Notes under the pieces: generated by a model
The model's input: only the letters and a program-made list of their open reading frames with translations
Databases searched by the model: none
Told to the model about the DNA's origin: nothing
In this document: positions 1,754 to 29,600 of the stretch, piece by piece
How the letters are laid out: each line of letters starts with the position of its first letter
How positions within the stretch are numbered: the first letter of the stretch is position 1
Position numbers and translations under genes: made by a program
Assembly: GCA_029863275.1 (NCBI GenBank)
Contig: JAOTVS010000015.1
Span: forward strand, 1 to 33,873
DNA length: 33,873 bases
Source of the DNA: Candidatus Nitrosopumilus sp.
Lineage (GTDB): Archaea > Thermoproteota > Nitrososphaeria > Nitrososphaerales > Nitrosopumilaceae
Direction: 5' to 3'

Positions 1754-3925
1754 TTATGGATCAGGACAGCCATCAAAGTCTCTGTCTCCATCATAGTCTT
1801 CAGGGTCTGCTGGACATGAATCTTTATCGTTGATAATTCCATCCAAATCATCATCATGAACAAATCTTTGTTGTTCTGGTGCAATATCTGGGCAGCCATC
1901 AGTATCTCGGTATTTGTTCCAAGTTTCAGGACTGGTTGGACATAAGTCTACATTGTCATAAATCCTATCACCATCTGAATCAAATTTGGTTGGCGCAGAT
2001 GATTCTGCTGCCTTTGAGTCAGGGCAGCCATCCCAATCAGTATAATCGTTAAAAGTTTCAGGCAATAAGATACATTGATCCCATCTGTCATCAATTCCAT
2101 CACCATCTGAATCAGGGAATTGGTATGATGTTTGTTCTTCTAAAACACTATCAGGGCAACCATCAGAGTCTTGATAAAAGTTGTAAACCTCAGGTGTCAT
2201 TGGACAAGAGTCAATTACATCTACAATTCCATCCATGTCAGTATCTATCGTTGATACAATTTTGTCAGGACAACCATCTGAGTCTTGGAATTGATTGTAA
2301 ACCTCAGCTTGGGTGGGGCATAAGTCCAAGTTATCTATAATTCCATCACCGTCAGTATCTTTGGTAGCCTTTCCATCAGGTACCATATCAGGACAGCCAT
2401 CATCATCTTCAAACTTGTTGTAAGTTTCCTTACTGAATTGACAAAGATCATTTTGATTTGGAATTCCATCACCATCTGAATCTCCCATATCTAGATAATC
2501 AAGAACATCAGGGCAGCCATCCTCATCAAAGTAGCGGTTGTAATTTTCTCGTATTGTGGGGCAAATATCAATATGATCTGGAATTCCGTCATAATCAGAA
2601 TCAGCTAAAGCAGTTTCGGATATTATTACAGTATCAGCGCACCCATCTCGATCTAAATAACCATTAAAAGTTTCTGGTTCATTAATACATGCATCCCATC
2701 TGTCAGGAATTCCATCACCATCAGTATCAGGGAATTGATATGTCAATAATTCAGATACAACTGTATCAGGGCAGCCATCTGAGTCTTGGAATTGATTATA
2801 AGTTTCAGGTTCTTGAGGACATTGGTCAAGTACATCAATAATTCCATCCAGGTCACTATCAAGAGTTGGGGTTAATTTATCGGGGCAACCGTCTGAATCT
2901 TGGAAATCATTGTAAACCTCTGCTTGGGTGGGGCATAAGTCCAAGTTGTCTACAATTAAATCACCGTCAGTATCTTTGGTAGCCTTTCCATCAGGTACCA
3001 TATCAGGACAACCATCAGTATCTTCAAACTTGTTATAGGTTTCTTTATTGTATGGACAAAAGTCATTTTGATTTGGGATTCCGTCCCCATCAGTATCACC
3101 TGAGATCAAATAATCTACGATATCAGGACAGCCATCATCATCTTCAAATTTGTTAAAATTTTCTCGCTCAAAAGGACAATTATCTTTTGAATCTGGAATA
3201 GAATCGTAATCAGAATCAATCAAACCAGGAGAGTCAAATCCTAGATTTTCAGGACAACCGTCCCAATCAAGATATCCATTAATGTTCTCTGCTAGTTCGA
3301 TACAAACATCCCATCTATCTGGAACACCATCACCATCGGTGTCAGGAAATGTGTAAATCTCATCAGACTCAAAAATTTGGTCAGGACAGCCATCATTATC
3401 TTCAAATTGATTATAAGTTTCCATAATTTCAGGGCATTCATCTAGATTGTCAGAGATTCCATCTCGATCGGTATCTAGTAACGAGGAAACGTCATCTGGG
3501 CAGCCATCCTTATCATCGATACCGTTAAAGGTTTCTGGTTGATTAGGACAACGATCTAGAAAATCCGCAAAGCCATCATTATCAGAATCAGCTGTATTTT
3601 TTCCATCATATGGTGCAGAATCAGGACAACCATCTTCATCCTGATATTTATTATAATTTTCTCTTACGGTTGGACAATCATCGATGTGATCTTCAATTCC
3701 ATCCAAATCAACATCATACCATAGAACAAAATCTGCTGGGCAACCATCAATATTAATTCCATATTGTGGATCATAATCTTCTAAAAGATGAGGGCATCTA
3801 TCTACATTATTTGGAACTCCATCATTATCATTATCATTGATTCCTGCTCCATAGACACTACCTGGCAACATAACAGCCATTGATATAAAAAAAAGTAAAA
3901 ATCCTACAAGATAATATATTTTCAT
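1754..3925 (-). CDS. Secreted thrombospondin type-3 repeat protein (third of three, 17 units)
   Basis: A 723-residue protein with an N-terminal signal peptide (hydrophobic core about 5-22, likely cut after VYGAG) followed only by TSP3-like units, to the last residue. Each unit of about 36-41 residues has the pattern D-x-D-x-D-G-x-x-D-x-x-D-x-C-P-x-x-x-E-x-Y-N-x-F-x-D-x-D-G-C-P-D. I count 17 units, with one variant ending in GCAD. In the family the Asp/Asn residues coordinate calcium and the cysteines form disulfides, giving a rod-like, calcium-dependent fold. There is no C-terminal membrane anchor or sorting signal. Units 5, 10 and 15 carry a D-R-W-D variant spaced exactly 615 bp apart. The start ATG follows the stop of the preceding paralogue by 12 bases, with GGGG as a possible ribosome site. 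The biological role is unknown; adhesion or extracellular matrix is inference. Confidence 0.9.
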   Translation of the reverse strand: MKIYYLVGFLLFFISMAVMLPGSVYGAGINDNDNDGVPNNVDRCPHLLEDYDPQYGINIDGCPADFVLWYDVDLDGIEDHIDDCPTVRENYNKYQDEDGCPDSAPYDGKNTADSDNDGFADFLDRCPNQPETFNGIDDKDGCPDDVSSLLDTDRDGISDNLDECPEIMETYNQFEDNDGCPDQIFESDEIYTFPDTDGDGVPDRWDVCIELAENINGYLDWDGCPENLGFDSPGLIDSDYDSIPDSKDNCPFERENFNKFEDDDGCPDIVDYLISGDTDGDGIPNQNDFCPYNKETYNKFEDTDGCPDMVPDGKATKDTDGDLIVDNLDLCPTQAEVYNDFQDSDGCPDKLTPTLDSDLDGIIDVLDQCPQEPETYNQFQDSDGCPDTVVSELLTYQFPDTDGDGIPDRWDACINEPETFNGYLDRDGCADTVIISETALADSDYDGIPDHIDICPTIRENYNRYFDEDGCPDVLDYLDMGDSDGDGIPNQNDLCQFSKETYNKFEDDDGCPDMVPDGKATKDTDGDGIIDNLDLCPTQAEVYNQFQDSDGCPDKIVSTIDTDMDGIVDVIDSCPMTPEVYNFYQDSDGCPDSVLEEQTSYQFPDSDGDGIDDRWDQCILLPETFNDYTDWDGCPDSKAAESSAPTKFDSDGDRIYDNVDLCPTSPETWNKYRDTDGCPDIAPEQQRFVHDDDLDGIINDKDSCPADPEDYDGDRDFDGCPDP
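2077..3306 (-). repeat. 615-bp five-unit super-repeat in TSP3 gene 3
   Basis: The equivalent position in the codons for the D-R-W-D variant falls at 2077, 2692 and 3307, so two complete 615-bp (205-codon) periods lie here and a third, shorter block continues upstream. Each period holds five TSP3 units in the same order. The sequence has diverged but the length has not. Confidence 0.8.
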
Positions 3926-3937
3926 TCTTTAGGACCC

Positions 3938-6106
3938 CTAATAATCAGGACAGCCATCAAAGTCTCTGTCTCCATCATAGTCTTCTGGTTGTAGAGGACA
4001 TGAGTCTTTATCGTTGATAATATTATCCAAATCATAGTCGTGTACAAATCGGTCTTGTTCTGGGACTGCATCGGGGCAGCCATCATGATCATCATATTTG
4101 TTCCAAACTTCAGGAGCAGTTGGACAAGCATCTACTGAATCATTAAATCCGTCGCCATCAGAATCAATTCTCGTAGGACTAGTTGATTTTGCACCCGGTA
4201 CATCAGGGCAGCCATCCCAATCAGTAATATTATTGTAATTCTCAGGCACTGTTATACATTGATCCCATCTGTCTTCAATTCCATCGCCATCAGTATCAGG
4301 GAATTGATATGGTGTCACATCTTCCACAACGACATCAGGACAGCCATCATAGTCCTCAAATCTGTTATAATTTTCTGGGTGTTGAGGACATTGGTCAAGT
4401 ACATCAATAATTCCATCCCGATCACTATCAAGTGTTGGATTTAATTTATCTGGGCAGCCATCATTGTCAATATAGTTATTGAACGTCTCTGGTTGTCCAG
4501 GACACAAATCTATGTTATCAATTATTCCATCCCCATCAGTATCAGATGTGGATTTATAATCAGGAACAAAGTCTGGGCAGCCATCAGAGTCTAAGAATCT
4601 ATTGTAGGTCTCTGAGACAAGAGGGCATTCGTCTACGTCATCCATGATACCATCATTATCTTCATCTCCAATAGAATCATGAGAAACAGCATCTGGGCAG
4701 CCATCATCATCTAGGAACTTGTTATACCTCTCTCCAATCGTTGGGCATTGATCTCTATAATCTGGTATTCCATCATAATCAGAATCTGCAATTGGGTCTA
4801 CAGTTACGCCAGAAATTTCAGGGCAGCCATCTTTATCAAGAACTCCATTAAAGTTCTCTGGCTCGTCAATGCATGCATCCCATCTATCTTGAATACCATC
4901 ACCATCAGTGTCAGGGAATTGATATGTCAATAATTCAGATACAATTGTATCAGGGCAGCCATCTGAGTCTTGGAATTGATTATAAGTTTCAGGCTCTTGG
5001 GGACATTGGTCAAGTTCATCAATAATTCCATCCCGATCACTATCAAGTGTTGGATTTAATTTATCTGGGCAGCCATCATTGTCTTTGTATCCATTAAATA
5101 TTTCAGGTTGTAAGATACAAAAATCTACATTATCCATGATTCCATCGCCGTCAGTGTCTGCAACGAATTTGTTATCTGCAATTAAATCAGGACAGCCATC
5201 ATCATCCTCAAATTTGTTATAGGTTTCGGGATTATATGGACAAGAGTCATTTCTATCTAAAATTCCATCATGATCAATATCATCACTGAATGTAAAATTT
5301 AACTTATCTGGGCAGCCGTCAGTGTCTTCAAATTTGTTAAAGTTTTCTCGCTCAAGAGGACAATTATCAATAGAGTCTGGAATTGAATCATAGTCAGAAT
5401 CTAAACGTTCTTGAGTAGTACTACCTGAAATCTCTGGGCAGCCGTCTTTATCAAGAATTCCATTAAAGTTCTCTGGCTCGTCAATGCATGCATCCCATCT
5501 ATCTTGGATTCCATCACCATCAGTATCAGGGAATGTATATGATTTTTCATCCTCGGGCACAATGTCAGGACAACCATCATCGTCTTCAAATCGATTATAA
5601 TTTTCAGGAATGTCTGGACATTCATCTATGTTATCAGAGAGTCCATCTCTATCATTATCCCTAAGAGTTAGAATACTATCTGGGCAGCCGTCTTTATCAT
5701 CAATTCCGTTGAACGTTTCTGGTTGAGTAGGACAAAAATCAGAATAATCAAAAATACCATCACCATCAGAATCCTTTATTCCTGCACCACTACTTGGTGA
5801 CACGTCTGGGCAGCCGTCATCGTCTTCAAATCGATTGTAATTTTCTCTTACGGTTGGACAATCATCAATGTGATCTTCAATTCCATCATAATCTGCATCA
5901 TACCATGGAACAAAATCTGCTGGGCAACCATCTATGTTATAGCCATATTGTGGATCGTAGTCTTCTTTCTGATTAGGACATTGATCAACATTATTTGGAA
6001 TTCCATCTCCATCATCATCATTTGACTGCGCATAGACAGTAGTTTGAAACAGACCGATTGTTGAAACAAGTAAAACTAAAAATCCTAAAATTTTATATTT
6101 TTTCAA
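3938..6106 (-). CDS. Secreted thrombospondin type-3 repeat protein (second of three, 17 units)
   Basis: A 722-residue paralogue of the downstream gene with the same 17-unit order. I place the start at the TTG at 6106 (M-K-K-Y-K-I-L-G-F...), not at the ATG at 6133 that overlaps the upstream gene. The TTG begins a normal signal peptide (about 28 residues, ending V-Y-A-Q-S) and lies 8 bases after AGGAG, a ribosome site that overlaps the TAG stop of gene 1. Translational coupling with gene 1 is therefore likely. The mature protein is entirely TSP3 units with no membrane anchor. It opens with an aromatic F-V-P-W-Y-D cap and closes with P-E-D-Y-D-G-D-R-D-F-D-G-C-P-D. Units 5, 10 and 15 are the D-R-W-D variant. 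Long stretches are nearly identical to gene 3 at DNA level. Confidence 0.9.
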   Translation of the reverse strand: MKKYKILGFLVLLVSTIGLFQTTVYAQSNDDDGDGIPNNVDQCPNQKEDYDPQYGYNIDGCPADFVPWYDADYDGIEDHIDDCPTVRENYNRFEDDDGCPDVSPSSGAGIKDSDGDGIFDYSDFCPTQPETFNGIDDKDGCPDSILTLRDNDRDGLSDNIDECPDIPENYNRFEDDDGCPDIVPEDEKSYTFPDTDGDGIQDRWDACIDEPENFNGILDKDGCPEISGSTTQERLDSDYDSIPDSIDNCPLERENFNKFEDTDGCPDKLNFTFSDDIDHDGILDRNDSCPYNPETYNKFEDDDGCPDLIADNKFVADTDGDGIMDNVDFCILQPEIFNGYKDNDGCPDKLNPTLDSDRDGIIDELDQCPQEPETYNQFQDSDGCPDTIVSELLTYQFPDTDGDGIQDRWDACIDEPENFNGVLDKDGCPEISGVTVDPIADSDYDGIPDYRDQCPTIGERYNKFLDDDGCPDAVSHDSIGDEDNDGIMDDVDECPLVSETYNRFLDSDGCPDFVPDYKSTSDTDGDGIIDNIDLCPGQPETFNNYIDNDGCPDKLNPTLDSDRDGIIDVLDQCPQHPENYNRFEDYDGCPDVVVEDVTPYQFPDTDGDGIEDRWDQCITVPENYNNITDWDGCPDVPGAKSTSPTRIDSDGDGFNDSVDACPTAPEVWNKYDDHDGCPDAVPEQDRFVHDYDLDNIINDKDSCPLQPEDYDGDRDFDGCPDY
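4261..5490 (-). repeat. 615-bp five-unit super-repeat in TSP3 gene 2
   Basis: The D-R-W-D variant codons recur at 4261, 4876 and 5491, giving two complete 615-bp periods, the same length as in gene 3. A second anchor, the sequence beginning ACATTGGTCAAG on the plus strand, recurs at 4388 and 5003, again 615 bp apart and nearly identical over about 80 bases. Confidence 0.8.
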
Positions 6107-6117
6107 TTCAAATACTC

Positions 6118-8550
6118 CTAAAGATCCGGACAACCATCAAGATCTCGATCTCCATCATAATCTTCTGGCTCCAAAGGACATTGGTCATTAGCATTAACGA
6201 TATTATCTAGATCTGCATCATGTTTGTATCTTGATTGTTCTGGAAGAGTATCAGGGCAACCGTCTAGATCTTTATACTTATTCCATGTCTCTTTATCATT
6301 TGGACATTGATCAATTGAATCATCTATTCTATCACCATCAGTGTCAATAGATCCATTGCCGATTGGAAGTACATCAAGGCAACCGTCATAGTCGATATAT
6401 CTATTCCAATTTTCCATCTGTGTTGGACACAAATCCATTACATCAGCTACTCCATCACCGTCAGAATCAGGTAATGATATGTCAATGTCTGGACAGCCAT
6501 CTAGATCTTCTAATCCATTATAGGTTTCCGCATCAAATGGACAGGCATCTAATCTATCTTCAATACCGTCATTGTCAGAATCTACTATCAGCGATTCTAT
6601 AATCTTGTCAGGACAACCATCAGCATCTTGGAACTGATTGTAGGTTTCAGGTGATTGTGGGCAAGCATCAATTGCATCTGGTACTCCATCTAGATCTCTA
6701 TCAGCACTTGGAATGTAATTGTCTGGACAGCCATCTCTATCCAAAATACCATTAAATGTTTCAGGTTGATTTGGACAATTATCTTCAAGATCATAAATCC
6801 CATCACCATCAGTATCTGCGCGGTTCTTTCCATCAACTACTGAATCAGGACAACCATCTTCATCCTGGTATTTGTTATAAATTTCAGGAATGGATGGACA
6901 TTCATCAATATCATTTGCAATACCATCAAAGTCAGAATCACCTCCTCTCAGGTAATCTGGGAAATCTGGGCAACCGTCTTCATCTTCAAACCCATTGTAT
7001 CGTTCTCTTTCCATGATACATTTATCCACACTATCTAAAATACCGTCAAAATCAGAATCATTATCTAGAATACTATCTGGGCAACCGTCATGATCAACAT
7101 ATCTGTTCCAAGTTTCTGGTTGATCTGGACACAAATCTGATGAATCTAAAATCCCGTCAGCATCAGAATCTATCAACGCAATATCAGGACAACCATCATG
7201 GTCGTTGTATCCATTAAAAGTTTCAGGTTCTTTTGCACATTTGTCTAATAAATCTATTATTCCGTCTCCATCAAAGTCTGAATCAGATAGACCACTAACA
7301 GAGTCTGGGCAACCATCATCATCTTGGAAATTATTATACGTCTCCTTTACCGCTGGACATTTATCAAGAGAATCAATTATTCCATCTAAATCTCTATCAG
7401 TTGCTGATGCAGTATCAGGACAACCATCTCTATCAAAAAAGCCATTGAATGTTTCTGGTTGAGTAGGACATGAATCAGCAAAATCGAAAATTCCATCACC
7501 GTCAGTGTCTGGTGCCTCACTAGTTGGGTTGACATAGTCAGGACAACCATCAACATCTTGGAAATTATTATAATTTTCTTTTATAGTTGGACATTCATCG
7601 ATGCTATCTAAAATTCCATCAGAGTCTGAATCCCTGTCAATTGAGTAAGGAGGAAAATCTGGGCAGCCATCAAAATCTTCGTATCCATTATATCGTTCAG
7701 CTTCTGTTGGACAAGAATCATCTTCATCTAAAACGCCATCATTATCAGAGTCATTGTAAGTACCTAAAATTGGTCCTGAATCAGGACAACCATCATAATC
7801 AGCATATCGGTTAAAAGTTTCAGCTTGTCTTGGACAAATATCAAATCTGTCTGCAATGCCATCACCATCCGTATCAACAAAATTTGAATCAAGTGCAGTA
7901 TCAGGACAGCCATCATAGTCTAAATACCCATTAAAGATTTCTGGTTGTGTAGGACAAACATCTACCTTGTCTTGTAGTCCGTCATTATCTGAGTCAACAA
8001 ATTCAGTATCAATTACACTGTCAGGACAACCATCATCATCTTGATAACGGTTATAGATTTCAGCTTTTAACGGGCAAGAGTCAAGGCCATCAATAATTCC
8101 ATCTCTATCCCTATCACCTGTCATGCTAAAACTATCAGGACAACCATCTCTATCCAAAATACCATTAAATGTTTCAGGCTGATTTGGGCAAGAGTCAACT
8201 AAGTCAATAAACCCATCACCGTCAGTATCTGCTACTGATTTACCACTTTCTGGGGAATTGTCAGGACAACCATCATAGTCTTTAAATTTATTATAATTTT
8301 CTTTTAAGTTGGGACATTCATCGATATGATCTTCAATTCCATCATAGTCTTCATCATACCAGGGAACAAAGTTTGATGGGCAACCATCAATTGCTCCCTC
8401 ATAATCTTCTTGAAGATTAGGACAGTCGTCGATCTCATCTAAAACACCATCACGATCAAAATCATGAGCTGCAAAAGTAGGATTTAACGGGACACTTGTT
8501 ATTGTAGTAATAAGCAATACTAGGAATGCTACAAAATACTTTGGCTTCAA
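6118..8550 (-). CDS. Secreted thrombospondin type-3 repeat protein (first of three, 20 units)
   Basis: An 810-residue protein with a signal peptide (hydrophobic core about 6-20, then A-A-H-D) followed by 20 TSP3 units reaching the last residue. The start is TTG at 8550, and a TATA-like element centred near 8580 suggests a leaderless transcript. It shares with the two downstream paralogues the aromatic F-V-P-W-Y-D-E-D-Y-D-G-I-E-D-H cap in unit 2 and the P-E-D-Y-D-G-D-R-D-L-D-G-C-P-D end. Its internal higher-order repeat is six units long (anchors at 8144, 7424 and 6731, spacing 720 and 693 bp), unlike the exact five-unit period of genes 2 and 3. Departures include C-A-K-E in unit 11, C-I-M-E in unit 13 and GCLD in unit 18. 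As first gene of the operon it probably provides the promoter for all three. Calcium binding is expected from the family; the function is unknown. Confidence 0.9.
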   Translation of the reverse strand: MKPKYFVAFLVLLITTITSVPLNPTFAAHDFDRDGVLDEIDDCPNLQEDYEGAIDGCPSNFVPWYDEDYDGIEDHIDECPNLKENYNKFKDYDGCPDNSPESGKSVADTDGDGFIDLVDSCPNQPETFNGILDRDGCPDSFSMTGDRDRDGIIDGLDSCPLKAEIYNRYQDDDGCPDSVIDTEFVDSDNDGLQDKVDVCPTQPEIFNGYLDYDGCPDTALDSNFVDTDGDGIADRFDICPRQAETFNRYADYDGCPDSGPILGTYNDSDNDGVLDEDDSCPTEAERYNGYEDFDGCPDFPPYSIDRDSDSDGILDSIDECPTIKENYNNFQDVDGCPDYVNPTSEAPDTDGDGIFDFADSCPTQPETFNGFFDRDGCPDTASATDRDLDGIIDSLDKCPAVKETYNNFQDDDGCPDSVSGLSDSDFDGDGIIDLLDKCAKEPETFNGYNDHDGCPDIALIDSDADGILDSSDLCPDQPETWNRYVDHDGCPDSILDNDSDFDGILDSVDKCIMERERYNGFEDEDGCPDFPDYLRGGDSDFDGIANDIDECPSIPEIYNKYQDEDGCPDSVVDGKNRADTDGDGIYDLEDNCPNQPETFNGILDRDGCPDNYIPSADRDLDGVPDAIDACPQSPETYNQFQDADGCPDKIIESLIVDSDNDGIEDRLDACPFDAETYNGLEDLDGCPDIDISLPDSDGDGVADVMDLCPTQMENWNRYIDYDGCLDVLPIGNGSIDTDGDRIDDSIDQCPNDKETWNKYKDLDGCPDTLPEQSRYKHDADLDNIVNANDQCPLEPEDYDGDRDLDGCPDL
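6731..8190 (-). repeat. Six-unit super-repeat in TSP3 gene 1
   Basis: A plus-strand anchor starting CCATCTCTATC (coding for the L-D-R-D-G or F-D-R-D-G part of units 15, 9 and 3) falls at 6731, 7424 and 8144. Spacing is 693 and 720 bp. The first and last copies are nearly identical over about 47 bases although 1413 bp apart. Confidence 0.65.
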
Positions 8551-8688: not shown

Positions 8689-9714
8689 ATGAGTTGTTCT
8701 GGTGAAACAGTTGAGGAAGATCAAATAATTCAGATTAAACCTATGGTTTCTCAGCAGTTAAAAAAGGCAAAGTATGGCGTGTCGGATCACTCCACCGTAG
8801 CACTTTGTCATTGGACTAAAAAATCCTTCAAAAATGAAGGTAATTGTTACAAACACAAGTTTTATGGAATTTTGACTCATAGTTGTATGGAATTTTCCCC
8901 AGCAGGTATGTATTGTGAAAATCGTTGTGTATATTGTTGGAGACCAATGGAGTTTTATGAATCAATGAAAATGGAACCTGAACATGTATCTGAACCACAT
9001 GAGATAATGTCAAAGTTGATGGAAGAGCGAAGAAATTTGATCATGGGACATTATGGAGATCCGAAAAGTGATAAAAAAAGGTTAGATGAATCACTAAAAC
9101 CGAATCATTATGCGATTTCCTTGTCAGGTGAACCGACCATGTATCCCAAGCTTCCTGAACTAATAAAATATTTAAAATCTCTAAAGGAAACAAAATCAAT
9201 TTTTCTTGTAACAAACGGACAAGAACCAGATATGATTCAGAAATTACAACAAGAAGATGCATTACCAACTCAATTGTATTTATCAACAAATGCTTCGGAT
9301 TATGAATCCTTTTTGCGGATAAACAAACCAAGGTATGACGATTCTTGGGAACGATGGAATAAAACTTTAGACATGTTAAAGGATTTGAACACAAGAACTG
9401 TACTTCGAATCACTTTGATAAGAGATTACAATGATCACCCAGAAATGACTGTAGCGTTTGCAAAAATGTTAGAACAATCAAGTCCTCATTTTGTTGAAAT
9501 AAAATCCTACATGCACATTGGTCGTTCAACAAATAGATTAGATCGCGAAAATATGCTAGAGATGGATGAGATAAGGAAATTTAGTGAAGGTTTAGCAAAA
9601 AAGAGTCGCATATTTTCAATTATGGATGAAAGTTTTATTTCAAGAATTGTAGTATTGCAAAACAATAAAAGAAATATTGATAGATATATTCCTACTTATC
9701 AAAATACCAATTAG
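8689..9714 (+). CDS. taw1: S-adenosyl-methionine-dependent tRNA 4-demethylwyosine synthase (TYW1/Taw1)
   Basis: A 341-residue radical-SAM enzyme that condenses N1-methylguanosine-37 of tRNA-Phe with two carbons of pyruvate to build the tricyclic wyosine base. The radical-SAM cluster ligands are C76, C80 and C83 in C-E-N-R-C-V-Y-C-W-R. The second Fe-S cluster ligands C40, C53 and C66 show the 13-residue spacing known from the M. jannaschii enzyme, and the 10-residue step from C66 to C76 also fits. An S-L-S-G-E-P-T-M-Y-P motif (SAM binding) follows. The gene faces away from the TSP3 operon, and its last 23 bases overlap the convergent pyrophosphatase gene. Confidence 0.95.
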   Translation: MSCSGETVEEDQIIQIKPMVSQQLKKAKYGVSDHSTVALCHWTKKSFKNEGNCYKHKFYGILTHSCMEFSPAGMYCENRCVYCWRPMEFYESMKMEPEHVSEPHEIMSKLMEERRNLIMGHYGDPKSDKKRLDESLKPNHYAISLSGEPTMYPKLPELIKYLKSLKETKSIFLVTNGQEPDMIQKLQQEDALPTQLYLSTNASDYESFLRINKPRYDDSWERWNKTLDMLKDLNTRTVLRITLIRDYNDHPEMTVAFAKMLEQSSPHFVEIKSYMHIGRSTNRLDRENMLEMDEIRKFSEGLAKKSRIFSIMDESFISRIVVLQNNKRNIDRYIPTYQNTN

Positions 9715-21722: not shown

Positions 21723-24700
21723 TTAATTGTCTGAATTTCGTCGAGTGACAAACACGAATACTAATGCGATCGCAATTCCGATTCCAATTCCAACAATTAA
21801 TTCTAATGGAAAGGACACTTCTAAAATTTCATCTTGTTTAATGATATTTGATGAATCATTGGAATCATCTTTGACTTCGGGTTTTGTTTGGGTCTTATTT
21901 AGAGGAATTGGTTCGAGTTGAATTTTGGTTTGATTCAATTCATTTATTTCAGATTGAACATCAGCAGAAATTGTGGAGAATTTTGCAGCAAGAGTAATTG
22001 GTTCAGTAGTAGAATTTCCTCCAAATAATGTGCTATGTGCTAAAATTGAGTAAGTTCCAGTTTGATTAATTGGGACATAAATTACAGTTGATGTATTATC
22101 TTTATTTTTCACTGGAAAAAATCCACCGCCTTGACTAAACATTGAATTTCCTAACCAATCAAGTGATACCCATCCCATAAAATGTCCAAAAATTCCTGGT
22201 GGCATATTAGTTTGAATTATTTTTCCTTCTGGATTCATAACAAATACAGAGAGATTAGTATCATCTGTTAGCCAAGATAATTCAATAGCAGCTGAATTAA
22301 TGAATTCATCTTGAATATCAAAATAATATTGTCGCCAGTCTCCTGCCATATAGCGATTAGCCATGTCAAAGGCACCTTTTACATATCCATTTCCATAAAG
22401 TACATCCTCACTTTGATAACCTTTAATCAAAATTGGAGTATCTTTTTGGTTTACTGATTGCTTGACTACAAAAGAGACAGGAGCATTTACCGTATGTTTG
22501 ACACTTTCAAATGTTAAAAATCCCTGATAAACTCCCGGTTGAATATCAGTTGGTAGAATCAAATTTAATTTTACATCAGCTGTATCTTGAGGTGGAACTG
22601 TAATTGTTGAAGATTCAGGCCACATAACAGACCAATTTTGTTTTTTATAATAACTTGCAGACAATGTGTAATCCATTGCAGTCGAATTTTGTCTTGTATC
22701 ACCTGACCAAAATGAGTATCTAGTTGGAATAGGATAAACTCCAACAAGAGGAATGCCTTCAAATTGTTCATTTGGATCGGTGACTCTTAGTTCTTGTACT
22801 GTTCCCCAGGAACCTGCACGGTTGATTAGCGATAATTCGTTACTAGTAACTTTAGTATTATTATTAAGATCATTCCAATCATAAAGATAAAGTGATGAAA
22901 TTTTTAAATCATTTGCATAGATATCGTCAGTCTTGTTCATAAAGGAATTAAAAGGAAAATTTACATTTAAAACTAACAAAGATGCATCTTCAGGAATTGT
23001 ATTTTTTTCGTCAAAAAATTCTCCTAAACCTTGATGTAATTTTACATCGGAGAGTTTAATGTAATTTGGAATATATGCATTTTTGTCCTTTAATTCTGGA
23101 TCCTTAAGATAGTTTGTGTCTAGTTGTTGTAATTTAGTGGTACCATCAAATTGATTTTTTTTGATTAGAGATAATTTTTGTGGTTTTATTTTAATATCAA
23201 TTTGTGTATTACCAGGATTTTCTATCGTGAATTTTGCATAACTTTTTTCTCCAGGGGATAAATGTCCTGCAAACCAACTTGTCATAGGCATTGACCTTGA
23301 GGGGATTTTAAATCTCTCAAAATCTAATGCTGTAGAATTTATAGATTCAACTGCTGGATCTAGTATTTTTTTTATGTTGGTGTACGAGGCATCATTGTAA
23401 ACTATGAAAGTTTCATTGTCTCCATTTACAAATTGGAGTGCGGAATTTACATTTACCAAACCTGAACCTTGATTAAACGGATCATTTTGTAAATCCGTAG
23501 CAGTAGACATTAAGATATTTTTAATGGTAAAAGGATCATAATCTTTTGATTGATTTTGTAAGCCTTCCATCAAAATAGCAGCACTTCCAGAAACTATTGG
23601 TGCTGCCATACTGGTTCCACCAAATAAAGAAAAGGATTCTTTTTTTGAATCTTTGTGAATTTTCAACATATTTGATGGCGTAAATCCATAAGCACCTATA
23701 CTCATAATATCAGGTTTAGGATCACCGATAATTCCTGGACCTCTACTTGAAAAATCCACTACGTCGTTATTATGTAAAGTTGAATTTCCAAATCGTGGTT
23801 CATTTTTAAAAGGACCATATCCAACAAAAACATTATTTGTAGTTGCTCCAACGGAAATCCCAAATGGTGAAACATTTGGCATTCCCATTGTTCCGTACCC
23901 TGGTCCAGAATTTCCTGCACTTGAGACGATAGTAATTCCAGGGTAATCATCATCAAGTGATTTTGGGGTTGCAAGTATACTTGCGATTAGTGATAAGATG
24001 TCCATACCAGGAGATGATTTGAGAATTGGGAAATTTGATATTCCCCAACTATTAGAAATTATATCTACGTTTGTTTTACCAGTAAATTTCCAATTATTTT
24101 CTTCATTTTCAAAACCAGCAGCCCACAACCATGCATAAACTGTATCTCCAAACCATAGGGCCTTTATTGGAACTATTTTTGCATCAGGAGCAACACCTTT
24201 TATTATGAATTTTTTTGTGTTGTTGTAAATATCATATTCTTGTACTCCTCTTGAAGTGATTGAACCTGTGCTACTGGTTCCATGTCCCATAAAATCAGTC
24301 ATTACACCAAAATACTCCCCGTCGGGATCAATTGAAGAAAGTAAAGTTCCATTTATTGCATTTACAGTATCTTCAACTTTGCTTTTTTTATCTTGAATAA
24401 CTCCATAGACGTCTAAGACTTTAGCCCCAACTGCACCTGCACTGTAATCGATCTTTCCATCACCATTGGAATCATAAACAAGAAATTCATTTCCACTTCC
24501 TAGAATAATTGGTTTCTCATCAGTAAAATCAAAATCATAATTGGGTGTTTCATTTGACTCTAAATCATATCTAGTAAAATCTTCCCATGACGTAGAAAGA
24601 TCTGGAATTATTGTGTCATAGTTGCCTGCAATATTAGAATCTACAAAAAGAACAGGTACCACCTGAACCCTACTTTCTGGACCAGAAAGACCACCTTGGA

Positions 24701-25559
24701 ACATTATTCCAAGGTGATAAATTCCACTTTTTGATTTAATGTAATCTCTATTATTATTGCCAATTTTTATATCAGTATTTAGTGTTCCATTAAAAATAAT
24801 ATCAAATCCAGCCTGAGGAAAAAAAGAATTGTAAATTGGAATGTTTGTTCCTTTTCCATCTTGTACTATGTCTAAAAAGATACCTTCCTTTGATTGATAT
24901 ACACCTGAAGTTATTCCCTCAGGAATTGGTTTGCTATAATTTCTAATGATGTTATCCTTATCCTTAAAGGCAAAAAATGTAGCATTAGTCAAAACAATCC
25001 CTTGACCGTCTACATCAATCATTATTGGATGATTAGATTTGTCCCTTGCAACAGAGTCTTGAATATCTGGATTGGAAAAATCTACACCTGTATCTACAAT
25101 TGCAATTGTAATTCCTTTTCCTGTAACATTGTAATTAATCTCGGCTAAATTAGCTCCAGTTATTTTTCCAATTACTGAAGCATCTGGAATATCTTTCTCA
25201 GAGTGAAAATCCAGTGGAAAGTCTTCAATTACGTTATAGCCCCGTGAGATTAATTTAGAAACTGAATTTTCATCCAATACTGCCACATGAAAAAATCCTT
25301 GCTCAGACTCTATACCATACATCGAATTTTTTTGTAAAAAATCAAAATCATTGACACCTGTGCCAAATATCACGTATCTTTTGAAATTATTTTTTGTAAA
25401 AAAATCTGGGGCAATATCTACTATATTTGAATCAAAAAAAGTGTCATAATTTTTTTGAACAAAATTATCATCAACTACATCACCGCCTGTAAATCCATAT
25501 GAACTTGAAATTGTATATGAGAGCAAAATTAACATAAAAAAGATTGCCACCGTGGGCAT
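21723..25559 (-). CDS. Membrane-anchored subtilisin-like (S8) serine protease
   Basis: A 1278-residue surface protease. An N-terminal signal peptide (about 1-22) and a propeptide-like region precede the S8 domain, with catalytic Asp156 (A-I-V-D-T-G-V-D), His426 (G-H-G-T-S-S) and Ser650 (G-G-T-S-M-A-A-P) and an S-S-A-G-N-S-G oxyanion segment. The 270 residues between Asp and His are much longer than in subtilisin and include an EF-hand-like loop D-S-N-G-D-G-K-I (363-370). Beta-rich domains follow (about 740-1190), then a linker and one transmembrane helix near 1252-1271 ending in R-R-N-S-D-N, so the protease faces outward. It is encoded 31 bases downstream of the coiled-coil membrane protein and near the S-layer gene. 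S-layer maturation or peptide scavenging are possible roles (inference). Confidence 0.93.
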   Translation of the reverse strand: MPTVAIFFMLILLSYTISSSYGFTGGDVVDDNFVQKNYDTFFDSNIVDIAPDFFTKNNFKRYVIFGTGVNDFDFLQKNSMYGIESEQGFFHVAVLDENSVSKLISRGYNVIEDFPLDFHSEKDIPDASVIGKITGANLAEINYNVTGKGITIAIVDTGVDFSNPDIQDSVARDKSNHPIMIDVDGQGIVLTNATFFAFKDKDNIIRNYSKPIPEGITSGVYQSKEGIFLDIVQDGKGTNIPIYNSFFPQAGFDIIFNGTLNTDIKIGNNNRDYIKSKSGIYHLGIMFQGGLSGPESRVQVVPVLFVDSNIAGNYDTIIPDLSTSWEDFTRYDLESNETPNYDFDFTDEKPIILGSGNEFLVYDSNGDGKIDYSAGAVGAKVLDVYGVIQDKKSKVEDTVNAINGTLLSSIDPDGEYFGVMTDFMGHGTSSTGSITSRGVQEYDIYNNTKKFIIKGVAPDAKIVPIKALWFGDTVYAWLWAAGFENEENNWKFTGKTNVDIISNSWGISNFPILKSSPGMDILSLIASILATPKSLDDDYPGITIVSSAGNSGPGYGTMGMPNVSPFGISVGATTNNVFVGYGPFKNEPRFGNSTLHNNDVVDFSSRGPGIIGDPKPDIMSIGAYGFTPSNMLKIHKDSKKESFSLFGGTSMAAPIVSGSAAILMEGLQNQSKDYDPFTIKNILMSTATDLQNDPFNQGSGLVNVNSALQFVNGDNETFIVYNDASYTNIKKILDPAVESINSTALDFERFKIPSRSMPMTSWFAGHLSPGEKSYAKFTIENPGNTQIDIKIKPQKLSLIKKNQFDGTTKLQQLDTNYLKDPELKDKNAYIPNYIKLSDVKLHQGLGEFFDEKNTIPEDASLLVLNVNFPFNSFMNKTDDIYANDLKISSLYLYDWNDLNNNTKVTSNELSLINRAGSWGTVQELRVTDPNEQFEGIPLVGVYPIPTRYSFWSGDTRQNSTAMDYTLSASYYKKQNWSVMWPESSTITVPPQDTADVKLNLILPTDIQPGVYQGFLTFESVKHTVNAPVSFVVKQSVNQKDTPILIKGYQSEDVLYGNGYVKGAFDMANRYMAGDWRQYYFDIQDEFINSAAIELSWLTDDTNLSVFVMNPEGKIIQTNMPPGIFGHFMGWVSLDWLGNSMFSQGGGFFPVKNKDNTSTVIYVPINQTGTYSILAHSTLFGGNSTTEPITLAAKFSTISADVQSEINELNQTKIQLEPIPLNKTQTKPEVKDDSNDSSNIIKQDEILEVSFPLELIVGIGIGIAIALVFVFVTRRNSDN

Positions 25560-25580: not shown

Positions 25581-25591
25581 GTTATTATAAC
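25581..25591 (-). promoter_or_regulatory. Possible promoter of the subtilase gene
   Basis: Minus-strand GTTATAATAAC (itself an inverted repeat) is centred about 27 bases before the ATG at 25559 and touches the stop codon of the upstream gene. It would allow transcription separate from that gene. Confidence 0.35.
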
Positions 25592-26559
25592 TATCTTCTT
25601 CGCGCAAGAATTGCAACTTGAAGTGCAACAATGATTCCAATTGATGCTACTACTGGAAACAATAACGAATTTAGTTGAGATGATGCCTCTTCAATATTTA
25701 GTACTGATTTGGAAACTGAAGCTACACTAGCATCGATATTACTGCTGGCATTTCCTAAAGTAGAGCCAAATTCTTTGACTTCGGATTTTAAGGTATCTAG
25801 TTCTTTGGATGTTTCATCCAATACTGAATTTAATTCAATGATTTGATCCGAGATTCCACTTATGTCTTGGCTTTGAACTAGAGTGGCAGCTGAGCCATTA
25901 GATGTTGTTCCTTGGCTAAATGCAACTACATGAAAAACAAAAGTCCCCTCCTGTTTGGGGATATAATCTACAAAAAATAATCCTTGATGTAAGGTCGTAA
26001 AAGAATCAGTTAAGGTCTCTACCTGTCCTGAGGGAAGATGGACATGACTTGATTCAAGAAGTTCTGCAGGATCATTGCCTATTAAAAGACCATCACTTGT
26101 GGTTTGAACAAAGACCCGAAATGAATTATTTATTGCTGCAGTCTCTGGTGCAAATACTAGTGTGTTTACATTTCTTTCAACTGGAACATCAACTAGTTCC
26201 GTCGTTGAGGTAAATGAAACATTAATTTTTTGCGATACTCCACTTTGCTCAGTACTAATTACCTCTACTGTATAAGTTCCAAAAGGAAGACTTGCAGAAG
26301 AAGTAGGCCAAGTTATTAAAACATGATTAAAAGAGCCGTCATCATTTGTAGTTACCTGATTAAATCTAGTTATTGTTTCATCTGGTGCAAATAATCTAAT
26401 TATTAGATTTTCATTTGGTAATCCTTTACCGTATACAAAAAGTGGTTGTCCCTCTGAAAAAACACGATTATTGGTTTCAACTGCAAGGTCTGAATAGCCA
26501 TTTTGAATTGTAACAGTCAATAATGGAATTAAAAACAAAGTGAAGATTTTTTTGTTCAT
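25591..26559 (-). CDS. Secreted Ig-like/coiled-coil protein with C-terminal membrane anchor (candidate S-layer stalk)
   Basis: A 322-residue protein from the ATG at 26559 (M-N-K-K-I-F-T-L-F...), chosen because it begins a clean signal peptide; the frame is open to 26583. After the signal come two beta-sandwich-like regions (about 25-225). The first has F-V-Y-G-K-G-L-P-N-E-N-L-I-I-R typical of archaeal Ig-like surface domains. A heptad-rich stretch (about 234-298) with leucines, isoleucines and valines regularly spaced predicts a coiled coil. One transmembrane helix (about 299-319) ends in A-R-R-R. This order resembles the Sulfolobus S-layer anchor SlaB in architecture, though not visibly in sequence. 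It is encoded directly downstream of the S-layer gene, whose product has no membrane segment. The anchor role is inference. Confidence 0.8.
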   Translation of the reverse strand: MNKKIFTLFLIPLLTVTIQNGYSDLAVETNNRVFSEGQPLFVYGKGLPNENLIIRLFAPDETITRFNQVTTNDDGSFNHVLITWPTSSASLPFGTYTVEVISTEQSGVSQKINVSFTSTTELVDVPVERNVNTLVFAPETAAINNSFRVFVQTTSDGLLIGNDPAELLESSHVHLPSGQVETLTDSFTTLHQGLFFVDYIPKQEGTFVFHVVAFSQGTTSNGSAATLVQSQDISGISDQIIELNSVLDETSKELDTLKSEVKEFGSTLGNASSNIDASVASVSKSVLNIEEASSQLNSLLFPVVASIGIIVALQVAILARRR

Positions 26560-26583
26560 GTTAGAGTACTTGATAATAATCAC

Positions 26584-26598
26584 CTAGATAATACTTCT
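26584..26598 (-). promoter_or_regulatory. Promoter of the coiled-coil membrane protein gene
   Basis: Minus-strand AGAAGTATTATCTAG includes a TATA-like AGTATTATC about 30 bases before the ATG at 26559, so this gene can be transcribed apart from the S-layer gene. Confidence 0.4.
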
Positions 26599-26635
26599 GG
26601 AAAATTTGTTTACAACTATCGTTAAGAGAAGATTC

Positions 26636-26648
26636 AAAAAAAAGAAAA
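26636..26648 (-). terminator. T-run terminator of the S-layer gene
   Basis: On the coding strand an uninterrupted run of eight T (26636-26643) and a run of four T (26645-26648) lie about 25-35 bases after the S-layer stop codon at 26672. Archaeal RNA polymerase stops at such runs, and this one would isolate a very highly expressed gene from its neighbour. Confidence 0.6.
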
Positions 26649-26671
26649 GGAATAGTGTGAATTTTCTAGTC

Positions 26672-29600
26672 TTAGATGACAGTTATGCTTGTATCTACAG
26701 GTGGAGATAGAGCAGTTGGATTATCAACGCTCTCCCAAACAAATGCGGTCACATCAAAGTTACCTGCATTCTCTGGTATCCACGATAAAGCTGGGCTGAA
26801 TGATTGTCCTGGTGACAATGAACCAGTAATCCATGCTAGTGAGACTGTAACGCCGTTTCCATCCTGAATCTGTATCAAGTAAGCAAATGGTTGCTCTCTA
26901 TCTTGGCCATTTGAAACATCACAAGTGATTTGTACCTGTTGGTCTACGGAGACACTACTTAGAGTGTTACCGAAGGCATCAACAACTCTACAGTTAGAAG
27001 CCGGAGCTCTCTCTAGAGGTGGCACAACAGTACCTATGAGTGAAGTGGCAGTGATATCAAGTTCATCTGCTGTTGTATATGGATCAGGTAAGGTGTTATC
27101 TTCATATTCTGCAGTGACAGTGTCACCTTCTGCTACTCTGAGTCTGTGACCAGATGATTCATCAAGAATAGTGAAGAACACTGTTCCCTCGAATATACCG
27201 GTTGCCTCATTAGTTTCAGTTACAGTTAAGTCGATACCACCAGCGTCAGAATCAGACCATACGTCGACATCGAAGTTGTCGACTGCTTCTGGATCTAAGT
27301 TCATGTCTGGATCAATTATTCTAACAACGCCAGTTCCGCTTGCAGGATAACTTGCTTCAAGCCACTGTGCCTCACCAATGTTCCATCTGATAAGTGCTGA
27401 GCCGACTACTGTTTCATCCTCTGAGAATTCAAAGGAGACAGTAATACCGTCATCATCATCAGCTGGTAAGAGTCCATCAGTTGGACCAGATCCGGATGGG
27501 GATCTAGAAACTACATCATTACCATTAGCATCACCAGTTCTGGAATCGCCATCAGCATTGTGTGTAAAGCCAGTAAGGATTACCTCACCAGTGAAAATGC
27601 CTGTGTCGGTACCAGTTTCGACAAGTTTGTAGTTGTCAATATCGTCACCTCTGGTTGCGACCTTTACTGGGTCCAAGTCAGTGTTACCGATTTCGTCAAC
27701 TAGATCACTGTCAAAGTTGTGATCTGGTGCTACAATTGTAATGTATACTTTATCAGTCCATGTGTAGACTTTTTGGTCAAGTTCAACAGTTGCTCCGAAG
27801 TTTGAAGTGTAGATTGTCAAGTTGACATCTTCATCTTCGTCACCTACAAAGTCAGATCCACTTGGGCCCCAATCAGTGTACTCGAGAACAATTTCTTCTC
27901 CTCTTTCCAATCTGTCACCTTGCAACACTTCAGGTACTTCAATGATAATCTGGAAGATTCCAGTGCTATCACCTGTTTCTCTAAAGGCAGTTGGTTCTGG
28001 GTCAAATGCGGCTGCTTCGCCGTCAGCGTCTCCCATGGAGACGGTTGCGGCATCAGAGTCCCATTCAATTAAGTCCAAGTCATATGTTTCTGCAGCATCA
28101 TTGTCCAGATCTAAGTCTGGTTCAATTAATGTGAGAATTATATCGGATCCAATGATATATACGGATTTATCGGATTGCAATACACCATTTCTAAGGTCAA
28201 AGGTAGCTGAATCTGTAACAGTATTTACATCACCAGATGCATCAGCTGGGTCAGTGTATTCTACTTGGAGAATATCTCCTTGTAAGATACAATAGTTTTT
28301 ACCAGCATCTGAAGCTGTTGAGAATCTGTTAAGTTCGCCAGTTCCACCTGAACCATCAAGAGGACTAAATACCTCTGTTTCTGGACAGATGGCGTTTGCT
28401 GGACCGTCGGTATATCTTAATCCAATATCAATCTCAAAGATACCTGCATCTGGTGCAATTTCATCGATTGGACCAAACTGTCTAACAGTTGGTGAATCAG
28501 TGAAGATACACTTTGCACTTACACTAGCAATAGCTGGGCTTGGTGTAATAGTACAAGGACCATTTACAAATCCATTACCACTTGGAGGAGACTTTATGGT
28601 TAATTCTCCGTTCTCGATGGTAGATGTGTTATCTGTAAATAGTGCAGTTGCAATACTTGTTGAGGTTCCTTGTATTACTACATCCACGGAATTACCGGTT
28701 GTGTAACCGGCTCCAGGATTAGTAATGGACAACTCATTATCATCAACATTCTTGTCTCCATTGATATCAGTCCATACTGCTGTAGCTAATGTAGTAGCAA
28801 ATGGAGCAGTATTTGTGGTAATCAAACTACCTGCAAGGGCGTCATCTAAGACGACATTGGTTGGTAGTGGGAGTAGTTGATCAATGGAAGTTGAGATATC
28901 TAATTCAGACATAGCAATCTGGTTGGTGCCAAGATTTGTGAACGTTCCTAATGCACAATTTGCAGGTGCCATACCTGGTTGGCAAATAAGTACGTCAGTT
29001 GCTGCGAAACCACCAATGTTGGTAATTTCGGAACCTTGATCAAGACCGTTATTGGAGCCATCAGTAAAGAGTGCAGCTACTGTGTTTGTTCCTTGACTAA
29101 TGGTGATTAAACCATTTGTAAAGAAAGGCAAACCAGCGCCGATGAAGGTGTTTAGTTCAGTTCCTGCACCAAGTCCTGCTGATCCAGTATCAGTAAATGT
29201 TGCAGATCCAAAGTTTGGAGGCTGCGAAATACTAATTCCTGGGCCAGAAGTAAATGTGCCAGGATTGCCCTGAGCACCTGTACCAAAGCCAGGAGTACTT
29301 GAGAGAATATTTATCTCACTTGCAACTACCTGACCGTCACCTTTTAGATTAGTTCCAACATTAATCGTACCATCTCTTGCAGATGGTCCACCGGCAAATC
29401 CAAGGATCACAGTTTCAGAACCTCTGATTACAGAGACCTTTACTGGACCAATTGGTTTTGCTGCAGTGTTTTGATTAATTGTGTCTTCACCACTTGCGGA
29501 TATATCATAATCTGGGTCGTTAACTCGTATGTGAATAGTCAGATCTCCGTTAGGTAGGAAGCTACCTGGATCAGTCAAATCATCAGCATTATTGCTGTTT

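Follow-up and report, generated by a model that had tools for sequence, protein, structure and literature searches.

Proteins built of thrombospondin type-3 (TSP3) repeats are already known in Nitrosopumilus. Bayer et al. (2019) found that two such TSP3 (TT3R) proteins, each with a marked signal peptide, were on average 15–40-fold more abundant under H2O2, that S-layer proteins rose alongside them with some small aggregates, and that the archaeal proteins resemble a myxobacterial thrombospondin-like cell-surface cluster; the authors point out that the cells could have been mending damaged surface proteins (PMC6593220). Because TSP3 proteins of Nitrosopumilus have already been tied to the cell-surface matrix there, a role in matrix or adhesion is the leading published reading (PMC6593220). 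The thrombospondin genes of Marine Group II archaea have likewise been interpreted as adhesion genes (PMC6461757), and a hadal-archaea paper refers to a thrombospondin-like structure outside the cells of one ecotype, citing Wang et al. 2019 (PMC7265257). A 2025 biofilm study of N. maritimus points to another region, Nmar_0455–0459, for adhesion, and thrombospondin does not occur in the text consulted. Among bacteria, the TSP3 protein TraB of Myxococcus forms a cell–cell adhesin together with TraA (PMC6372800).

We analysed a window of 33,873 nucleotides from a Candidatus Nitrosopumilus sp. contig (JAOTVS010000015.1), in which a first-pass annotation had proposed an operon encoding three secreted proteins made only of TSP3 units. 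This operon is real, conserved and well delimited. The three tandem reading frames lie on the minus strand exactly where they had been placed, the numbers of units were confirmed by segmentation and by counting Cys pairs, and the host is supported as an ammonia-oxidising archaeon (Table 1). The annotated gaps of 11 and 12 bases are correct if gene 2 begins at TTG 6106. The ORF caller chose an upstream TTG at 6133 that overlaps gene 1; the start at 6106 is supported because relatives begin with MKKYxxLGFLLLL. First-start calling gave a TTG start in 23 of the 30 complete class I genes and an ATG start in 21 of the 28 class II genes (classes as defined below), and class I may have a conserved weak TTG start that adjusts the amount produced.

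Table 1. Features of the TSP3 operon, its surroundings and related loci. Positions refer to the window unless a locus is named.
Feature	Position	Strand	Description
tRNA-dihydrouridine-synthase-like gene	737–1696	minus	Constant downstream neighbour, outside the system; named from similarity by eye
Gene 3 (class II)	3925–1754	minus	723 aa; putative signal peptide and 17 TSP3 units; 34 Cys; 5-unit super-repeat
Gene 3, second 5-unit super-repeat	2150–2764	minus	Residues 388–592; unit lengths 44-42-40-41-38
Gene 3, 40-codon patch	2726–2845	minus	95–97% DNA identity to gene 2
Gene 3, first complete 5-unit super-repeat	2765–3379	minus	Residues 183–387; unit lengths 44-42-40-41-38
Gene 3, signal-like N-terminus	3848–3925	minus	26 residues, ending VYG before AGI; from sequence
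Gene 2 (class II)	6106–3938	minus	722 aa; putative signal peptide and 17 TSP3 units; 34 Cys; 5-unit super-repeat; TTG start from comparison with relatives
Gene 2, signal-like N-terminus	6029–6106	minus	26 residues, ending VYA before QSN; from sequence
Gene 1 (class I)	8550–6118	minus	810 aa; putative signal peptide and 20 TSP3 units; 40 Cys; 6-unit super-repeat; TTG start
Gene 1, signal-like N-terminus	8470–8550	minus	27 residues, ending TFA before AHD; from sequence
TYW1-like gene	8689–9714	plus	Divergent, constant upstream neighbour, outside the system; named from similarity by eye
Subtilase-like gene	21723–25559	minus	1278 aa; C-terminal hydrophobic segment
S-layer-like gene and adjoining SlaB-like gene	25591–32545	minus	S-layer-like protein of 1957 aa
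Classical TSP3 locus, own genome	L097:2–550 (contig C34)
Classical TSP3 locus, own genome	L098:1–1101 (contig C10)
Classical TSP3 locus, own genome	L100:1–2073 (contig C29)
Classical TSP3 locus, own genome	L101:649–3546 (contig C45)
Secreted-looking protein, own genome	L099:2–778 (contig C1)		Three DGCPD-type units, then Pro-rich TELPP tail running off the contig
14-unit gene of a relative	L064:14633–16369		Class II N-terminus, class I-type spacing
Class II gene of a relative	L068:12449–14620		The one class II gene of its island

The units of all three proteins follow the form DxDxDGIxDxxDxCPxxPExYNxxxDxDGCPD with a linker of variable length, and they measure about 40 residues, ranging from 36 to 44 within one protein, with a C-x15-C pair. 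Relative to the first Cys, Asp occupies positions -13, -11, -9 and -2 in 54 of 54 units, and Glu +5, Asp +12, Asp +14, Gly +15 and Cys +16 are present in all 51 units of standard spacing. The several Asp/Asn ligands per unit described in the first-pass annotation were found, whereas its ‘usually two’ cysteines understated the pattern, since every unit has exactly two (108 over the 54 units). Asp makes up about 21–22% of the residues, and the calculated pI is about 4. Pfam TSP_3 (PF02412) matched the three whole proteins with 130, 104 and 139 bits where 25 is the cut-off (E values between 3e-30 and 3e-41, 15–17 stretches per protein), and in the Pfam scan of the three proteins no other family rose above its cut-off. 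Signal-like hydrophobic N-termini, judged by eye, are present in the three proteins and their relatives, which supports the proposed export signals at the level of sequence. At the other end, no more than 10 residues lie beyond the final Cys in any of the 66 complete relatives, so there is neither a sorting tail nor a membrane anchor, and the three C-termini of the operon were read directly. Together with the Pfam scan, these C-termini bear out the view that the proteins contain nothing beyond the array. AlphaFold2 models were of low confidence for both class I (alignment A1; mean pLDDT 56, pTM 0.17) and class II (alignment A2; mean pLDDT 53, pTM 0.18) and carry no information on the shape of the chain. 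The TSP3 ‘wires’ of animal thrombospondins fold compactly; the rod shape, calcium binding and adhesion proposed for the archaeal chains are readings of their sequence and may hold.

The two best NCBIfam matches both bear myxobacterial cell-contact names and lie well under their cut-offs: MtsC (NF047638, ‘cell-cell cohesion MYXO-CTERM protein MtsC’), the best match of each of the three proteins, scored 131, 126 and 177 bits against an equivalog cut-off of 350, and TraB (NF033763) scored 81, 102 and 146 bits against 700. MtsC of Myxococcus shares the long TSP3 array, but the archaeal proteins have neither MYXO-CTERM nor any other sorting tail and occur as at least two paralogues in one operon. 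We rejected the name ‘MtsC orthologue’ on account of the score and the missing tail. TraB has TSP3 units of a similar type, flanked by an outer-membrane barrel and an OmpA domain, and neither an OmpA C-terminal domain nor a barrel was detected beside the archaeal units in the Pfam scan. Nearly identical units also occur in bacterial OmpA-type proteins (PDB 5wtl, found by sequence match; two Myxococcales proteins, L094 and L095; a Raymondbacteria protein, L092), where a few of them act as a spacer between domains, whereas in the archaea they are the entire protein; L095 carries the unit CPNEPETYNNFQDDDGCPD, near-identical to the archaeal type. In animal thrombospondins and COMP a single TSP3 wire lies within a multidomain protein. 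These animal proteins share Pfam TSP_3 and detectable sequence similarity with the archaeal ones (COMP, PDB 3fby, E 1.6e-6), which lack any other domain. The usual role of TSP3 units as links between other domains is seen in the bacterial relatives and also in the organism itself, whose genome encodes classical animal-like units (DNCPLTPNPGQEDSNNNGVGDACE) in multidomain proteins, several of them cut at contig ends. Two kinds of TSP3 therefore coexist in this genome. Near-identical units probably broke the assembly at contigs C34 and C10, and the two may belong to one gene. A further contig encodes the secreted-looking protein with DGCPD-type units listed in Table 1.

The proteins fall into two classes, class I with 20 units in a 6-unit super-repeat and class II with 17 units in a 5-unit super-repeat. 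Similarity is greatest between units six apart in gene 1 and five apart in genes 2 and 3, and when the units were shuffled 5000 times, the observed value was reached 0, 2 and 2 times, respectively. Unit lengths in class II cycle 44-42-40-41-38, the 44-residue unit having a signature such as FPDTDGDGIxDRWDxCI. When 25 class I proteins (alignment A1) and 21 class II proteins (alignment A2) were compared, the distance between units was nearly fixed at each position, with exceptions of one residue; the majority residue has a share of about 0.45–0.7 at linker positions, whereas it is about 1.0 at the main Asp ligand and Cys positions. We considered whether this spacing is unusually free of indels and dropped the claim, because enzymes encoded nearby, used as a control, show similarly few. 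The constraint on linker length is thus about that of a folded protein and not greater.

Lengths were surveyed in 66 complete genes from related genomes, with 21 genes excluded as open at contig ends, frameshifted or containing runs of N. The 28 genes with the 5-unit pattern have 12 (one gene), 14 (one), 17 (22), 22 (three) or 27 units (one), and the 30 genes with the 6-unit pattern have 14 (two), 20 (26) or 26 units (two), so that 27 of the former and all of the latter either have the standard length or depart from it by a whole number of super-repeats. Eight genes, of 7, 8, 14, 17 or 19 units, fit neither pattern under this simple rule. The rule is a simple, testable statement on how long calcium-repeat proteins evolve. 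Genes 2 and 3 share a patch of 40 codons that is probably a product of gene conversion, as judged by its near-identity in DNA (Table 1) against 48–92% in the remaining 20-codon windows. Blocks are also more alike within a protein than between proteins (identity 0.69 and 0.62). The shared patch and the higher identity within proteins point to recombination between units behind the changes in length. Recombination by itself could yield a whole-block rule, and the rule is therefore no proof of a structural register. Two relatives have unusual arrangements. A 14-unit gene with the first-unit spacing of class II (18), followed by class I-type spacing and a 6-unit super-repeat, is apparently a chimera formed within its island, with a class II start and a class I body. 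In another island, the two 5-unit blocks of the single class II gene are 90% identical compared with an average of about 69%, a pattern that suggests recent block duplication or conversion.

Full-length class I relatives with 58–76% identity occur in many Nitrosopumilaceae, and named taxa with relatives include Nitrosopumilus, Nitrosarchaeum, Cenarchaeum and Ca. Nitrosomaritimum khambatensis. Searching the whole class, we obtained hits at E <= 1e-20 for 55 of the 120 genomes and for 10 of the 37 genera, and every positive among the matches listed came from Nitrosopumilaceae. Restriction to one genus was rejected, as 12 of the 20 genera sampled in the family match some such array at E <= 1e-30. 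In the family and class searches the arrays were absent from many Nitrosopumilaceae, ammonia oxidisers included. At loci reaching both flanks the arrays sit between TYW1 and dihydrouridine synthase, usually as a single class I gene with one to three class II genes after it; the synteny across Nitrosopumilaceae that the first-pass annotation had suggested looking for is thus present. One relative (L111) has an empty slot, with dihydrouridine synthase about 90 bases from TYW1 and no TSP3 gene between them. The complete genomes G048 (1,645,259 bp; two S-layer frames, 1740 and 1711 aa long) and G082 (1,803,090 bp) have exactly 20, 17 and 17 units; judging by their sizes, we take them to be N. maritimus SCM1 and N. 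adriaticus NF5. Since these two genomes resemble the strains used by Bayer et al., the TSP3 proteins of that study, which belong to the same archaeal family, are probably encoded by these very genes or their orthologues; the paper itself does not give an operon, unit counts or super-repeats (PMC6593220). In the literature searched, outside which most subscription papers lie, we came across no account of the operon or of its two classes, near-fixed spacing and super-repeat rule.

Ammonia-oxidising archaea are among the ocean’s most abundant cells and, to our knowledge, little is known of their surface apart from the S-layer. The proteins of this operon are conserved and apparently occur in cultured strains of Nitrosopumilus; they offer a concrete candidate for aggregation, for attachment to particles and for the way the surface responds to H2O2. 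We think it about equally likely to be right or wrong that they are secreted, anchorless, calcium-folded and disulfide-stapled surface or matrix proteins made of TSP3 throughout, probably cohesive, and like MtsC in action without being MtsC. On this reading, the operon of Nitrosopumilaceae would make exported structural proteins in which each unit offers two clusters of Asp/Asn/Glu ligands and a Cys pair, and the chain would fold around seawater calcium, perhaps with two ions per unit; given the Cys pair and the two clusters, calcium-driven folding is to be expected in seawater. Once exported, the proteins would remain on the cell surface, beneath the S-layer or within shed matrix, where they would cross-link or line surfaces. 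Their likeliest role would be cell–cell or cell–particle cohesion with envelope reinforcement, raised under oxidative stress. Calcium binding, disulfide bonds, shape, location and cohesion are inferred. The reading is backed by the TSP3-only composition with all units intact, the lack of an anchor, the conserved gene order, the likenesses to MtsC and TraB, to OmpA-type proteins and to 5wtl and 3fby, and the published rise of two TSP3 proteins under H2O2 and their likeness to the myxobacterial cluster (PMC6593220); the invariance of ligand and Cys columns in alignments A1 and A2 while linkers drift also speaks for it. Against it, the proteins have no known binding domain, anchor or partner, the AlphaFold models are silent on shape, the 2025 biofilm study points to another region (Nmar_0455–0459) for adhesion, and the response to H2O2 could be surface repair. 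A more specific proposal, which we consider unlikely, is that super-repeats and near-fixed spacing set a register, as in a modular molecular ruler, with chains of classes I and II co-assembling on archaeal cells, driven by calcium, as a fibre or sheet of defined size; the chains would then gain or lose whole super-repeats, since any other length would disrupt the register.

The main rival to a cohesive matrix, unlikely in our estimate, holds that the chains are companions of the S-layer, calcium-bridged spacers of set length between it and the membrane or on top of it, which would tune the stiffness of the envelope and not join cells. Anchorless chains of near-fixed length would suit such a spacer, as would an S-layer that in N. 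maritimus depends on calcium and is stripped by EGTA (PMC11153153) and whose proteins rise together with TSP3 proteins under H2O2 (PMC6593220). However, the published S-layer structure paper names no TSP3 protein (PMC11153153), and the arrays are missing in many Nitrosopumilaceae. A constant distance of about 18 kb separates the operon from an S-layer gene in the window and in other complete genomes, but general synteny explains it, and a functional link from position was rejected. It is improbable that the arrays act as a cation sink, in which polyanionic chains would buffer calcium or keep ammonium concentrated close to the membrane: the Asp-rich composition and low pI fit, and acidic channels of the N. 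maritimus S-layer enrich cations (PMC11153153), yet a buffer requires no fixed spacing, super-repeats or Cys pair per unit. Many ammonia oxidisers of the family do without arrays, seawater is rich in calcium, and the calcium buffering considered in the first-pass annotation gained no specific support.

The 15–40-fold increase of the two Nitrosopumilus proteins under H2O2 (PMC6593220) would also be expected if the 108 Cys formed a sacrificial thiol/disulfide layer shielding the cell from the oxidant. We judge this very improbable, since the Cys stand at fixed structural positions, one pair per unit, as for disulfides, which are poor scavengers of H2O2, and since the island has no gene for a thioredoxin-like partner. 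Hardly credible is an origin mostly in recombination-driven repeat expansion under weak selection and with little function of the product; the gene-conversion patch, the partial homogenisation of blocks inside genes, the length changes by whole super-repeats and the patchy presence are what it predicts, but ligands and Cys are intact in every unit, spacing is nearly fixed across the 25 and 21 proteins, and 26 of the 30 complete class I genes with the 6-unit pattern have 20 units.

Elsewhere in the window, the S-layer-like protein resembles N. maritimus S-layer proteins in other genomes. The adjoining gene encodes a SlaB-like protein of 330 aa (NF040788, E 1.2e-8, below the cut-off) with a coiled-coil-like stretch and a C-terminal hydrophobic segment; for N. 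maritimus, a homologue of SlaB has already been published (PMC11153153). The gene for the subtilase-like protein has the SlaB-like gene on one side and the Rieske/cytochrome b genes on the other.
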